The translations under genes were made by a program, and so were the position numbers. Source: an uncultured Bacilli bacterium (GTDB lineage: Bacteria; Bacillota_I; Bacilli_A; RFN20; CAG-449). From it: a DNA stretch of 48,187 nucleotides. The stretch's first letter is position 1. Each line of letters opens with the position of its first letter. Where the stretch lies: NCBI GenBank assembly GCA_947627505.1, contig CANQWG010000006.1, forward strand, positions 1 to 48,187. Direction: 5' to 3'. Positions 37,570 through 44,208 of the stretch are shown in pieces. The notes under the pieces were generated by a model, which saw nothing but the letters and a program-made list of their open reading frames with translations, did not search any database and was not told where the DNA came from.

Positions 37570-37645
37570 TAATTTGTTCAGTTAATCTCCCAAAAAGGAT
37601 TTTATTCTCCCAAAATGCTAAATTAATGTGAGTTTATTTTATTTT
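37570..37645 (-). repeat. fic 3' flank, copy 1 of a duplicated segment
   Basis: CTCCCAAAA occurs twice (near 37588 and 37609), followed by the fic stop region. The same order and words recur at 39633-39742 (copy 2). Within copy 1 the second CTCCCAAAA lacks the matching GGGAG, so the hairpin present in copy 2 is lost here. Confidence 0.7.
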
Positions 37646-38680
37646 CACGTAGTAAGTTGAACGCCCGCCACCACGTTTTTCAATCATTCCTTCTTTGCAT
37701 AGTTGTTTTAAGGATGATTCGACTGAACTAGATCCTATCTCCGGGCAATATTCCATGATGTCGCTTTTGGTGAATTTACCAATCTTCTGACTAACAGCAT
37801 TTTTCACCATTTCAAGTGCAGATAGTTTCTTAGAAACGACATTCACTCTATCCTCAAAATCGCGGTAAGCGGCTAAAATAGTGCCAAGTAAATATTTGAC
37901 GAAAGCAGTATCATCGTTGTTTTCTTCATACCATCCCTTTGAACTTTCGCTTAAAGCTTCATAATATTCTGGTTTAGTGATTTGGATTTTCTTCTCTAAG
38001 GAAATGTATTTGCCAACCACAAATCCCGATTTATAAAGAAGTAATGTGGTAAGTAATCTAGACATTCTTCCATTTCCGTCGTTGAATGGATGAATACATA
38101 AAAAATCATGGATAAAAATCGGTATTACCAATAGTGGATCAATTCCATATTCCCCTATCGCTTTATTGTATTCTTCACACAAACTTTCAATAGCGATCGG
38201 AGTTTCAAACGGCTCTAATGGTTTAAATATAACTTCTTTGACACTATCTTCATGTATGGCAACTATTTCGTTTGGGGTATCTTTGAAGTTACCACCAAAA
38301 GTCACATCCATAAAACGATACATTTCCTTATGAATTTGAAGTATATAGTTATTTCTAATTGGAATATATTCAAAGGATTCATGAACCAAGTTAAGTGCAT
38401 ATCTATATCCAAGTATCTCTTTTTCATTACGATTTTTAGGAGTGGTCTTATCGTTCATCAACTGAAGTAATCTAGAATTCGTAGTTCTAATGCCTTCAAT
38501 ATCATTACTAGCTTCAGTGGATTGTCTTTTGGCTAGTTCCACCAATTTGCTAAGTTCTTCTGGCTTTTGCTTTAAATAAAGTTGCTGTCTACCTTTATAT
38601 TCGTGAATCAATCCTACGTAATTAACTACTTCCTTAGGCCATTTCCTGTCTTTAAGTTTTGAATAATCAAAGTATTTCAT
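37634..38680 (-). CDS. Fic family AMP-transferase with N-terminal inhibitory helix and C-terminal winged helix
   Basis: Fic proteins usually move AMP from ATP to a target hydroxyl. The core motif HPFNDGNGRMSR is complete (HxFx(D/E)GNGRxxR). The inhibitory motif [ST]xxxE[GN] is present N-terminally (SNDIEG, near residue 55), class II, so the enzyme is self-inhibited. The last 60 residues form a winged helix (FTKSDIMEY...SSVESSLKQL...GGGRSTYYVKIK) that could bind its own operator. The start at 38680 (MKYFDYSKLK) has AAAGGG upstream and sits right behind the promoter; an ATG at 38752 lies upstream of the promoter and is rejected. Length 348. Confidence 0.92.
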   Translation of the reverse strand: MKYFDYSKLKDRKWPKEVVNYVGLIHEYKGRQQLYLKQKPEELSKLVELAKRQSTEASNDIEGIRTTNSRLLQLMNDKTTPKNRNEKEILGYRYALNLVHESFEYIPIRNNYILQIHKEMYRFMDVTFGGNFKDTPNEIVAIHEDSVKEVIFKPLEPFETPIAIESLCEEYNKAIGEYGIDPLLVIPIFIHDFLCIHPFNDGNGRMSRLLTTLLLYKSGFVVGKYISLEKKIQITKPEYYEALSESSKGWYEENNDDTAFVKYLLGTILAAYRDFEDRVNVVSKKLSALEMVKNAVSQKIGKFTKSDIMEYCPEIGSSSVESSLKQLCKEGMIEKRGGGRSTYYVKIK

Positions 38681-38737
38681 TCTCACAATCCCTTTCGTAT
38701 TCTCACAAATTATAGTATATTTTGTGAGAATAATCAA
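38679..38737 (-). promoter_or_regulatory. fic promoter with three-half-site operator
   Basis: Minus-strand TTGATT (38732-38737) and TATAAT (38709-38714), spacer 17 bp. An exact 11-bp inverted repeat, ATTCTCACAAA (38699-38709) and TTTGTGAGAAT (38721-38731), covers the spacer and the edge of the -10. A third half-site, ATTCTCACAA (38679-38688), overlaps the fic start codon. The 20-bp step between the two same-direction half-sites is about two helix turns. Confidence 0.8.
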
Positions 38738-38839
38738 TAGACTATGAGGCAATTTTTGATGCTTTTATATTTAATTTGCCACTTTTTTCATAAACTAGAA
38801 TACTATTCCAACACCTATAAGTTTGATATCAAACTCAGC

Positions 38840-40040: not shown

Positions 40041-41321
40041 TTAATTTTTCAAGCACCCAATTGGAATTACCATAACACCATCTTCTCTTTTATATCCATA
40101 TTTAGTCGCAGTAATTACAATCTTTAAATCTGGTAATCTTAATTTACCATGCTTACTAGATTCATTATGTTCTATGATTAATCTTTCAATTTTACATAAA
40201 TGTTTAGCTCCTTCATCGATGCCATCTTCACCTAGTTTAAACTCTATTAATGCATATCTTCCATCATTCAAATGCAAAACACAATCTGCTTCCAAGCCAT
40301 ATCGATCTCTATAGTAAGAAACTCTTCCATCCAATGATTGTGAATATACTTTCAAATCTCTAATACATAAGGATTCAAATAAAAAACCTAATGTATTAAA
40401 ATCTCTATTAAAAAATTCTGGTGATAAACCCATTGCAGCAACTGCGATAGATGGATCTATTAAGTTCCTTTTTTTAGATGAACGAATCGCGGTTTTTGAT
40501 CTTATCGAAGGGCACCACGCATCTATATCATCGATAATATATAATTTATTTAAATCTTCCATATAGTCATAATATGTATTTTTTGATAGTTCGAAATTTG
40601 CTGCGACATCAGCATAAATAGTATTTGTTTCCGCGAGAGTACAAATATTTCTACTATATGACTGTAAGATGGTTTGTGCTATTTTGGGGTTTCTTTTTGT
40701 ATTAGAAATTTTATTTATATCTACCGAATATGTTTGCACAAACAAATCTTTTGCAATCTCCAATTTTGCCCTACTACTAGCCAAACCTAGTGAATGAGGC
40801 CAACCACCTCGACAGATAGCAAAAATTAAATCATCAAAACTCAAGTTAGAAACACAGCTTTTAAAAGCATCATGGCAATCAAATAAATCCATTAATGATA
40901 TTTCTCCATTAGATTCATTTGATTCATATAGACTCATAGGTAACATTTTAAGTCTAGAAATTCTCATGGTTCCCGTATGTGGGGTATCTACTTCTTGCGA
41001 TGAAGAACCAGTTAAAATATACATACCTACTTCACCTGTATCATCAATGGATTTTCTTATAGCACCCCATATTTTTGGTGAATCTTGCCATTCATCAAAA
41101 AGAATTGGTTTTTTACCTTGCAAAAGTTTTGATGGCTGTATTTCTGCAATTTTTAATAATTGTTCTCGATAATCTTCATCTTCAAATTCAATGATTGTAC
41201 TAGCAATTTGTTTGGCACTTGTTGTTTTACCACATCCTTTTGGACCAACAATTAAAGCTGCCCCAAACGCTTCTAACTTGTATTTTAAAAGCTTATCAAT
41301 AATACGTTTTTTATATTCCAT
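40041..41321 (-). CDS. AAA ATPase with DUF4143 C-terminus
   Basis: The 426 residues start with a P-loop GPKGCGKTTS (26-35) and Walker B PILFDEWQ, followed by TGSSSQ (sensor-like) and a winged-helix stretch. The C-terminal DUF4143 part has a PD-(D/E)XK-like core (LEADCVLHLNDGRYALIEFK). Such ATPases are frequent in gut Firmicutes; their cellular role is unknown, and a toxin-like or defence role has been suggested without proof. A strong promoter and three 23-bp repeats lie upstream. Neighbouring copy: 41922-43193, which is related in layout but not close in sequence. Confidence 0.88.
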   Translation of the reverse strand: MEYKKRIIDKLLKYKLEAFGAALIVGPKGCGKTTSAKQIASTIIEFEDEDYREQLLKIAEIQPSKLLQGKKPILFDEWQDSPKIWGAIRKSIDDTGEVGMYILTGSSSQEVDTPHTGTMRISRLKMLPMSLYESNESNGEISLMDLFDCHDAFKSCVSNLSFDDLIFAICRGGWPHSLGLASSRAKLEIAKDLFVQTYSVDINKISNTKRNPKIAQTILQSYSRNICTLAETNTIYADVAANFELSKNTYYDYMEDLNKLYIIDDIDAWCPSIRSKTAIRSSKKRNLIDPSIAVAAMGLSPEFFNRDFNTLGFLFESLCIRDLKVYSQSLDGRVSYYRDRYGLEADCVLHLNDGRYALIEFKLGEDGIDEGAKHLCKIERLIIEHNESSKHGKLRLPDLKIVITATKYGYKREDGVMVIPIGCLKN

Positions 41322-41339
41322 TATATCGCCTCATACAAA

Positions 41340-41440
41340 ATCATAGCTTATTATCTATTGATTGTAAAGTTTTTTTGAACATATTTGTGGTGTTTCATTG
41401 CACACATTTGGGCTGTTTTGCTTCACACATTTGTGAAATT
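41340..41440 (-). promoter_or_regulatory. promoter and 23-bp direct repeats of the first ATPase
   Basis: Minus-strand TTTACA (41363-41368) and TATGAT (41340-41345), 17-bp spacer, 19 bp from the start codon. Ten bp behind the -35, a 23-bp unit repeats: begins at 41379 (ACATATTTGTGGTGTTTC), 41402 (ACACATTTGGGCTGTTTTGC) and, partial, 41425 (ACACATTTGTG). Spacing is just over two helix turns, suiting cooperative binding by an activator or repressor. Confidence 0.75.
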
Positions 41441-41921: not shown

Positions 41922-43193
41922 TTAAAACAATTCAACTTTATTCAATAAAAAATCGATGAGTCTGCAATGCATTATTCCATCATCATCATAAAAAGTTGTA
42001 GGAATATCATTTCTTATCACTATTTTTTTAAAGAAATCCGCGGTAAGCTTTAAAGAATCAAGTTCTGCTTCCTCTTTTTTTTGCTTGTTTATTCTAAATG
42101 CAGATTGAATATAAATTTTTTTATCAAAATAATTGACTACAAAATCTATCTCTTTTATTTTTTTATTATTTGTACTTCTATCTTCGACCACGCCTATATC
42201 AACAGAATATCCTCGTCTTATAAGTTCGTTATAAATGATATTTTCCATGATGTATCCATAATCGATTTGTCGATAGTTTAATCTAATATTCCTAAGTCCT
42301 ACATCAGAATAATAATATTTTTTGGGATAATCAAAAAACTTTTTTCCTTTCACATCATATCTTCTTGCCTCAAAAATAAGAAATGCATCCATTATGTGTC
42401 TAAGATATTTTGTTACAGTATCATCCGATATTTTGTTTGATGCTTTTGTGTTAATAGCTCCTGTAATTTTATTGGCGTTTGTTAAGGAACCTATAGAAGA
42501 TGCTAAATAATCTAGTAAATCTTCTAAAACATCTTGCCTTCGTACTTTTGAGTGTTCAACTAAATCTTTTATATAAATTTCATCATAAAGATTCTTTAGA
42601 TATGTGCGTTTTTGTTCCGCGGTTGATTCATTGATAAGTCCCGGCATACCACCATAAAGCATATATTCATCTAATGCTTCACTTGCTACACCACCCCTAT
42701 AAGAGTAAAATTCTTCAAAAGAAAATGGATACACTTTTATTTGACTAGATCTTCCACGAAATTCAGTAGCAATATCGCTTGAAAGCATTTTTAAATTACT
42801 ACCTGTAACATAACAATCAAGATTAGAATAGCCCTTTAACTCATTTAACATATCGTATATACTTACTTCTATTTCACTTTCTTTATCAATAATCTTTTTG
42901 GTAAGTTGAACCTCATCGATAAAAAGATAATATTGATCAATTTTTTTTTCTTTAACGATATTTTCTACATAGTCACAAAGGAAAAATGGATCTCTAAATT
43001 TATAAAATTTTCGCTTATCAAGTTCAATTTCTATTATGTGATCTTCATTAACTCCAGAGGAAAGTAAATATTCTTTAAATAAATTAAAAAGAAGTGTTGA
43101 TTTGCCTCCTCGTCTGATGCCTGTAATAACTTTGATTTCTCCATTCCACATTTTTTCAATGATTTGATTTAAATAAAAATCTCTTTTAATCAC
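41922..43193 (-). CDS. AAA ATPase with DUF4143, second copy type
   Basis: The 423 residues have P-loop GIRRGGKST (25-33), Walker B YLFIDEVQL, TGSNLKML, the linker and winged helix (HSKVRRQDVLEDLLDYLASS), then DUF4143 with KEIDFVVNYFDKKIYIQSAF (nuclease-like D...Q-x-x in place of E-x-K, so the nuclease site looks inactive). Start GTG with GGGAGG at 7 nt. Own promoter (43248-43276) and two flanking 20-bp repeats. The fragment at 43432-43656 is the C-terminal end of a third relative (IYIQVTENMNSEEV). Confidence 0.88.
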   Translation of the reverse strand: MIKRDFYLNQIIEKMWNGEIKVITGIRRGGKSTLLFNLFKEYLLSSGVNEDHIIEIELDKRKFYKFRDPFFLCDYVENIVKEKKIDQYYLFIDEVQLTKKIIDKESEIEVSIYDMLNELKGYSNLDCYVTGSNLKMLSSDIATEFRGRSSQIKVYPFSFEEFYSYRGGVASEALDEYMLYGGMPGLINESTAEQKRTYLKNLYDEIYIKDLVEHSKVRRQDVLEDLLDYLASSIGSLTNANKITGAINTKASNKISDDTVTKYLRHIMDAFLIFEARRYDVKGKKFFDYPKKYYYSDVGLRNIRLNYRQIDYGYIMENIIYNELIRRGYSVDIGVVEDRSTNNKKIKEIDFVVNYFDKKIYIQSAFRINKQKKEEAELDSLKLTADFFKKIVIRNDIPTTFYDDDGIMHCRLIDFLLNKVELF

Positions 43194-43216
43194 AATTTAT
43201 TCCTCCCTCTAGAATG

Positions 43217-43331
43217 TTACGGCGTTTATGCCGTAAGTTTCGACTATATAATATAAAAAAATAAAGATAAAAACAAGTAGATAACACAATTTTTGTTCGA
43301 AAGTTAGTACATTTATGCCGTAAGTTTCGAC
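43217..43331 (-). promoter_or_regulatory. promoter of the second ATPase with paired 20-bp operators
   Basis: Minus-strand TTGTTT (43271-43276) and TATTAT (43248-43253), 17-bp spacer. TTTATGCCGTAAGTTTCGAC occurs exactly twice, at 43225-43244 (just past the start point) and 43312-43331 (upstream), 87 bp apart. The first lies in a perfect palindrome TTACGGC...GCCGTAA (43217-43236); the second is the right half of a near-palindrome with TCGAAAGTTA. A repressor bridging both would loop the promoter. Confidence 0.8.
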
Positions 43332-43431
43332 ACTTATCGTTATCTAGTATAATAATTAAGGAAAAAGTATGATAAAAAAGAGATGTCGATTATCCTTTTT
43401 TAATTTAGGTTTTTCAACATTCTTTTAAAAT

Positions 43432-43665: not shown

Positions 43666-44208
43666 TTAAAGAAGTATTGTTCCTTTAAATGGCTCGCCAT
43701 GTTCATCAAACATCATTTTCATCATTCTTCTTATTTGAGCATAATTGGGATGTTCAGATATGTCATAATAACTAAGTATTTCTCTCGTATAAAAATCAAT
43801 AATTGGAGATAAATATAATTTCCCCGCTTCTATTTGAAATTGAGTAACATCTGTCCCTAATATTTGATATGGTCTATTCGTTTCAAAATGTCTCTCGTAT
43901 CGATAAATATGCTTATCTTTATCTAGTTTCTTAATAAGTAGATGATTCCTACAAATTTTTCCAATTTGTCCTTTATAAGAATGATAACCATGTCTCCGTG
44001 GTAATGCTGATAAACTTCTCTCTTGCATAATGTGATAAACTTTTTTGTTATTAACAAAAATCCCTAGTCTTTTTAATTCTTGTACAATACGCGGCCTTCC
44101 ATATTTTTTATGATTCTTATTAAATATTTCTTCAATCAAATCACTAATTTCTCGATCTTTTTCTTTTTTATAATTTTGATGTTTTTCAACTAATATATAA
44201 TTTAAATT
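43666..44208 (-). pseudogene. IS3-family (IS150-type) OrfB transposase fragment
   Basis: Frame runs NLNYILVEKHQNYKKEKDRE, EIFNKNHKKYGRPRIVQELK (DUF/HTH_21 region), LPRRHGYHSYKG, GTDVTQFQIEAGKLYLSPI (first two core catalytic positions D), SYYDISEHPNYAQ, and ends EHGEPFKGTILL where intact copies continue into HSDQGWQY. So both ends are cut: no OrfA and no final D/E catalytic part. Inverted repeats are not visible. The 3' end abuts the ATPase fragment, the 5' end abuts the 36-bp and 74-bp repeats. Confidence 0.85.

Follow-up and report, generated by a model that had tools for sequence, protein, structure and literature searches.

Paired dyads bracketing the promoter of a DUF4143 ATPase gene suggest control of the gene by its own product

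Results

Two dyads at the promoter of the second DUF4143 ATPase gene

The window, that is, the whole 48,187-nucleotide stretch of DNA analyzed here, carries two genes for ATPases with AAA_14 and DUF4143 domains (Pfam), referred to below as the first and second ATPases (Table 1). The second ATPase (P0001) consists of an AAA+ module, a winged helix with a predicted recognition helix at about residues 257–269, and a C-terminal PD-(D/E)XK-like domain without the catalytic Lys; Pfam assigned AAA_14 with 97.1 bits (cut-off, 27) and DUF4143 with 60.6 bits (cut-off, 28.1) and no other domain, and NCBIfam gave no match above its cut-off. In PADLOC, P0001 matched PDLC04787 (PDC-S01) over residues 1–419 (E = 3e-109), placing it in this candidate defense family, and the first ATPase (P0002) matched PDLC04790. 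The genome contains 11 DUF4143 ATPase genes (L003–L013), a heavy load of one unvalidated family for 1.38 Mb.

The first-pass annotation had described two identical 20-bp sites 87 bp apart at the second ATPase gene, and counts in both the window and the genome bore this out. Thus, TTTATGCCGTAAGTTTCGAC occurs exactly twice in the window, at a start-to-start distance of 87 bp, and a search allowing up to 3 mismatches still gave 2 matches, as compared with 0.01 expected from shuffles. Across the genome (1,378,218 bases in 60 contigs), a search tolerating as many as 3 mismatches likewise recovered just the two promoter copies; an occurrence elsewhere within an unrelated repeat family had been named as the refuting finding. 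The 15-mer arm was found genome-wide in 2 exact copies and in two further copies elsewhere with 2 mismatches, the reversed control pattern giving 2. Neither the exact 20-mer nor a degenerate dyad was found in the viral contigs. With no further copy in the genome either, we rejected a genome-wide or phage repeat family for TTTATGCCGTAAGTTTCGAC.

On the gene strand, each copy of the 20-mer constitutes one arm of a dyad of about 36 bp. The palindrome reported earlier at the start point has a perfect core, TTACGGC-N6-GCCGTAA, its placement at the start point being only approximate, as the dyad (operator 2) lies between the -10 hexamer and the Shine-Dalgarno sequence. The distal copy, described before as a single upstream site, likewise has a partner arm, with which it forms the inverted repeat TCGAAAGTTA/TAAGTTTCGA (90%), not mentioned in the earlier annotation; this second dyad (operator 1) is located upstream of the -35 hexamer. 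Both hexamers in the window were assigned by eye, the automatic hexamer scan having chosen a different pair there.

Table 1. Features of the two DUF4143 ATPase genes and their promoters in the window
Feature	Position	Strand	Remarks
First DUF4143 ATPase	40041..41321	-	426 aa, protein P0002; another PDC-S01 subtype, intact D...ExK
Three direct repeats, first ATPase promoter	41369..41435	-	23-bp spacing
Second DUF4143 ATPase (AAA_14-DUF4143)	41922..43193	-	423 aa, GTG start; protein P0001
Shine-Dalgarno sequence (gagggagg region)	43202..43208	-	From sequence
Operator 2	43208..43245	-	Dyad between -10 and ribosome site
Perfect inner dyad of operator 2	43217-43236		TTACGGC-N6-GCCGTAA
20-mer copy in operator 2	43225-43244		TTTATGCCGTAAGTTTCGAC
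Predicted -10 hexamer TATTAT	43248..43253	-	27 bp from operator 2 center, family-typical offset; by eye
Predicted -35 hexamer TTGTTT	43271..43276	-	17-bp spacer; by eye
Operator 1	43295..43332	-	Dyad upstream of -35; center 87 bp from operator 2
20-mer copy in operator 1	43312-43331		TTTATGCCGTAAGTTTCGAC

Paired dyads among relatives of the second ATPase

Collecting and aligning promoters of this ATPase group had been proposed as a check on the two sites. From the 584 relatives in a genome-contig scan with the second ATPase, we took the best 80 (47–99% identity), which belong mainly to Bacillota, with some from Spirochaetota, Bacteroidota, Kiritimatiellota, and Mycoplasmatota, and which together with the window make a set of 81 promoters. 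Two good dyads were found by the site model in 52 of the 81, and the remaining 29, with fewer than two good sites, have mostly kept operator 2 alone. A leave-one-out symmetric site model scored above all 40 dinucleotide shuffles in 80/81 promoters (the exception being L048), a test that is not fully independent because close relatives remain in the training set. A model-free two-site score, whose sensitivity is lower than that of the site model, exceeded the 99th percentile of shuffles in 50/81 promoters and the maxima of both controls (324 shuffles and 260 other upstream regions) in 15/81. Moreover, the two arms of a dyad covary, their pairing over 102 sites being 0.598 against a mean of 0.477 and a maximum of 0.503 in 1,000 shuffles of the right arms, and arm agreement is higher between the two sites of one promoter (0.659) than across promoters of the same group (0.576).

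The distance between the two dyad centers (n = 52) falls into two classes, 73–78 bp in 29 promoters and 83–88 bp in 23, with none at 79–82 bp; each class is present in both groups A and B, and the cluster means, determined by hand, are 74.7 and 86.3 bp, about 11.6 bp apart. A vector test for helical period rose steadily up to 12 bp and did not single out 10.5 bp. Among the 50 scorable promoters, 37 have the -10 hexamer at 25–29 bp before the center of operator 2 and the -35 hexamer at fixed offsets after the center of operator 1, either 23–27 bp (23 promoters) or 34–37 bp (14 promoters). With the -10 fixed to operator 2 and the -35 in two offset classes, it is between operator 1 and the -35 that the distance changes by about one DNA turn. 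The promoter of the ATPase gene is thus bracketed by conserved sites, as in an autoregulated operator gene, judging both from the number of promoters with two sites (52/81) and from the hexamer offsets (37/50).

Relatives of the ATPase occur also on viral contigs (L154–L157 and L159, with L158 incomplete), and by eye L154–L157 carry site pairs in front of the gene. At L084, a further copy of the locus's own promoter dyad is located at positions 1951–2020, just past the stop codon, where it may have served a second gene copy, or one since lost, as its promoter.

Direct-repeat promoters in other DUF4143 ATPase families

In the family of the first ATPase, direct-repeat arrays of three repeats at 23-bp spacing were found at a score of at least 34 in 59/64 promoters, that of the first ATPase itself included, comprising 27/30 of a first set and 32/34 further promoters. 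Within the first set, 28/30 promoters exceeded all shuffles and 27/30 reached the stricter score of 34, on which the family totals are based. Every array interval measured in this family (56 + 64) is exactly 23 bp. A third family, represented in the same genome by L005 (protein P0003), has direct repeats at a score of at least 34 in 41/74 promoters (23/29, and 18/45 among more distant relatives), all measured intervals being 32 or 33 bp; L141 was excluded as a partial match, and one of the 46 further loci was unusable because its upstream sequence is missing. As a control, 0/66 upstream regions of other genes at the same loci reached a score of 34.

Units within one array of the 23-bp family agree at 0.82–0.93 over the core, whereas many of those core positions hold little information between members. 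The repeat spacing is strictly inherited and the repeat letters are not. Paralogues in the window's own genome with clear arrays have units that differ from one another. Collectively, the paired dyads (52/81), the two kinds of direct-repeat promoter (59/64 and 41/74), and the empty controls (0/66) sustain the proposal that this ATPase family is regularly under repeat-based control. The initial observation is thus confirmed, and it is much more general than the first-pass annotation could tell.

Covariation of operator letters with protein residues

The similarity of operators was correlated with that of the proteins, with a Mantel r of 0.76 in the second ATPase family (79 members) and of 0.67 and 0.62 in the other two. 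The 79 members, which also underlie the arm counts below, remained after dropping L027, whose dyad center was misplaced, and rows in which a good site or a full-length protein was missing. When overall identity was regressed out in this set, the outer half of the arm tracked best residues 254–264, at the predicted recognition helix, with a partial r of 0.48 in the best window (0.14 for the permutation 95% maximum), whereas its inner half tracked residues 336–360 with a partial r of 0.39 (permutation 95% maximum, 0.19), the permutation values being too favorable because the tree was ignored. The segment 336–360 covers the conserved E-I-D of the PD-(D/E)XK-like domain as well as residues before it. 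In scans of subgroups, group A alone peaked at residues 211–219, and groups B and C together at 336–344.

The letters of the arm can be sorted by residues 258–259. With NT at these positions (32 members, including five Treponema of group A), TGA is found in 96/102 arms; DT goes with TCG or TAG in 28/30 arms and TT with TTG or TTA in 15/18, and Leu at 259 is accompanied by mixed letters, mostly CTC/CTT/CTA or AAT/AAG. On a tree from which the helix columns were left out, the four helix classes require 3 changes, and NT could be ancestral; the independent events are therefore few, and shared ancestry explains part of the helix–operator association.

For the 42 members of the third family, residues 365–373 were tracked by positions 0–6 of the repeat unit (0.39 vs. 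0.27) and residues 267–275 by positions 12–18 (0.33 vs. 0.28), and a profile alignment (hhalign) showed these two segments to be homologous to the pair found in the second ATPase family. The same test on the 23-bp family (59 members) was not positive in the homologous segments, and no code is offered for it.

Fold and nuclease motif of the second ATPase

An AlphaFold2 model of the second ATPase (pLDDT, 90.3; pTM, 0.90) has a helix at residues 257–269 followed by strands, and this is the helix with which the winged-helix part is predicted to recognize DNA. The best fold matches of residues 1–306 were 2qen and 2fna (Z, 18.0; rmsd, 3.1–3.2 Å; 265–266 residues aligned), which are the archaeal AAA+ ATPases PABY2304 and SSO1545, respectively. 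They are nearest in fold at only 16–18% identity; a sequence search gave no solved relatives up to E = 1, and the accessible parts of the open-access literature yielded no function for either protein. Several chains of STAND/NLR proteins matched the model with Z of 12.6–14.6 over about 250–270 residues, and Orc1/Cdc6 (2qby_B) with Z of 13.4 and an rmsd of 9.9 Å over 265 residues. The second ATPase thus has the AAA+-winged-helix fold of STAND/NLR proteins, a shared fold that says nothing on function, and lacks their large C-terminal sensor repeats, having only AAA_14 and DUF4143 in its 423 residues.

The PD-(D/E)XK motif in the second ATPase family consists of D (78/79) followed by Q (79/79) and S (79/79), with Lys at the third place in 0/79, so that the D...(E/Q)xK catalytic set of an active PD-(D/E)XK nuclease is incomplete. 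ExK is kept in the direct-repeat families (E 58/59 and K 59/59 at 23 bp; E and K 42/42 at 33 bp). The loss of the catalytic Lys together with the invariant Gln-Ser suggests that the nuclease fold has been kept for DNA reading in the window's family.

Genomic surroundings and mobility

The 362 neighboring ORFs at 80 loci contained no conserved neighbor gene, the largest cluster covering 6/80 loci at mixed positions, and a partner gene associated with the operators was rejected on this basis. Copies in unrelated surroundings share homology that commonly starts near operator 1 and ends at the stop codon, extending further in some pairs; it runs from -138 to +1276 in the pair L014–L017 and from -117 to +1287 (85.6%) between L071 and L082 from Lachnospiraceae and Treponema. 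The gene and its operators consequently travel together, and the best explanation is a portable single-gene cassette.

Discussion

Autoregulation of the ATPase gene by its product through its own operators is the best-supported reading of these promoters and, judging from the sequences, probably the correct one. Operator letters that vary with the protein at a fixed spacing suggest that the protein recognizes and controls its own gene. As no partner gene was found and the letters track the DNA-binding segments of the protein, the ATPase itself is the best explanation for the binder; for the same reasons, control by the ATPase is the half of the earlier proposal (the ATPase itself or phase variation) that we retain. 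Probably dimeric, the ATPase would bind the two dyads bracketing its own promoter, and transcription of the ATPase gene would be controlled by bridging or stacking across the 7 or 8 DNA turns that separate them, promoter occupancy setting its expression. Two modules of each protomer may together read a half-site of about 17 bp, the outer half of the arm being contacted presumably by the winged helix and the inner half by the PD-(D/E)XK-like domain. Families would then differ in how the half-sites are arranged, as inverted pairs or as direct repeats of 23 or 33 bp. The regulatory sign is most likely repression, because operator 2 covers the start region, and activation from operator 1 at a low protein level is possible.

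This last possibility can be extended to an on-then-off switch, in which the ATPase would use operator 1 (class I-like, at about -60 or -72) as an activator and operator 2 as a repressor. Class I activators are known to act from such positions, and the one-turn steps between operator 1 and the -35, with operator 2 fixed to the -10, are in keeping with such a division of labor. However, bridging of two dimers predicts the one-turn steps equally well, and promoters with a single good site mostly retain operator 2; we consider the switch rather unlikely. It is very unlikely that the sites bind a host transcription factor, with the ATPase gene a mere member of its regulon. Dyads around a promoter are ordinary sites for such factors, and the ATPase is only a putative binder; nevertheless, the site is private to the second ATPase gene within the genome, paralogues with clear arrays in the same genome carry different units, and across Bacillota, Spirochaetota, Bacteroidota, and Mycoplasmatota it is the protein clade with which the sites go.

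The sites might also be iteron-like and the ATPase an Orc1/Cdc6-like replication initiator whose gene is a remnant replicon, given that AAA+-winged-helix genes are here preceded by direct repeats of 23 and 33 bp and that the fold search also returned Orc1/Cdc6 (2qby_B; Z, 13.4); this reading is highly improbable, since the genes stand singly without conserved neighbors, the sites are tied to the -35 and -10, and STAND/NLR chains are somewhat better fold matches. Control at the RNA level, with operator 2 acting as a 5'-UTR hairpin that masks the ribosome site, has scarcely any credibility: the 63-nt leader in the window does fold at -12.2 kcal/mol (z, -2.0), but this fold is weak, 9/200 shuffles being as good, and operator 1, equally conserved, stands before the -35 and outside the transcript made from the second ATPase promoter, so that we reject this reading. 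Finally, phase-variable expression, the other half of the earlier proposal, with the sites serving for recombination of an invertible promoter, can practically be dismissed, for although a 6-bp center flanked by arms of about 14 bp resembles tyrosine-recombinase sites and, by eye, the two dyads look mutually inverted in part of group A, no inverted promoter was seen by eye among the 81, the two copies in the window are in direct orientation, no conserved recombinase is found next to the gene at 80 loci, the direct-repeat relatives are unable to invert, and the -35 and -10 keep fixed offsets from both sites in 37/50 scorable promoters.

Returning to autoregulation by the ATPase, the WYL regulators BrxR and CapW reportedly control defense loci by binding to operator DNA. 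They are encoded by separate WYL-domain genes, and Pfam gave no WYL match in either P0001 or P0002. According to the accessible part of its description, RptR represses the promoter of a restriction-modification/DarTG2 island through three direct repeats (PMC12255303), which resemble the direct repeats at DUF4143 ATPase genes; RptR is, however, the product of a separate small regulator gene, whereas DUF4143 loci lack a conserved regulator and the candidate defense protein is the likely binder. Known regulation of defense loci (RptR, BrxR/CapW) thus uses separate regulators, unlike the self-control proposed here for the ATPase. In the portion available to us, a report on IniR, a mycobacterial signal-transduction ATPase that binds a promoter and induces transcription, likens its AAA+ domain to SSO1545 (PMC5760070), a likeness shared by the second ATPase; IniR differs in having separate C-terminal DNA-binding and MalT-like domains, in acting on the iniBAC promoter, and in not being a DUF4143 protein. 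A description of self-operators of DUF4143 ATPases was not found in the open-access PMC literature as far as its texts were accessible, subscription papers and bioRxiv aside.

PDC-S01, as presented in the accessible part of its report, is an unvalidated candidate in which an ATPase is fused to a PD-(D/E)XK member, and ranks as the fourth most common defense across prokaryotes (PMC12988326); the same part describes no promoter or operator architecture. The second ATPase is the same AAA_14-DUF4143 single gene with a putative defense role, from which its family departs in lacking the catalytic Lys (0/79). For one of the commonest candidate prokaryotic defense genes, with no validated function in the accessible text (PMC12988326), the operators name the probable DNA ligand sequence by sequence, for each examined promoter that carries them, and thereby open an orphan ATPase family to direct tests in binding, footprinting, and reporter assays.

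More tentatively, and with somewhat more doubt than confidence, all DUF4143/PDC-S01 ATPases might be regarded as self-addressed DNA readers, that is, portable cassettes with a private operator that co-diversifies with the protein and with a nuclease-like second reading module. If so, many paralogues would stay orthogonal in one genome, and the PD-(D/E)XK-like domain of the window's family would have given up catalysis for sequence reading. Should a protein–operator code hold, it would provide a naturally orthogonal set of regulators and a nuclease fold used for specific reading.

As to when these genes might be expressed, the presence of a plasmid raised the DUF4143 ATPase gene TT_P0211 of Thermus thermophilus 6.6-fold, and did so only when the strain carried Argonaute, according to the accessible part of the report (PMC4406477), which can be taken by analogy as a hint that DUF4143 genes respond to invading DNA. 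In the window itself, a fragment of an IS3-type transposase (HTH_21, rve) is located upstream of operator 1 at 43666–44139, and transposase-like sequence was also noticed by eye at around 38.9–39.4 kb. A Fic/DOC protein with a DIP2311-like C-terminal regulator domain is encoded near both ATPases, at 37634–38752.
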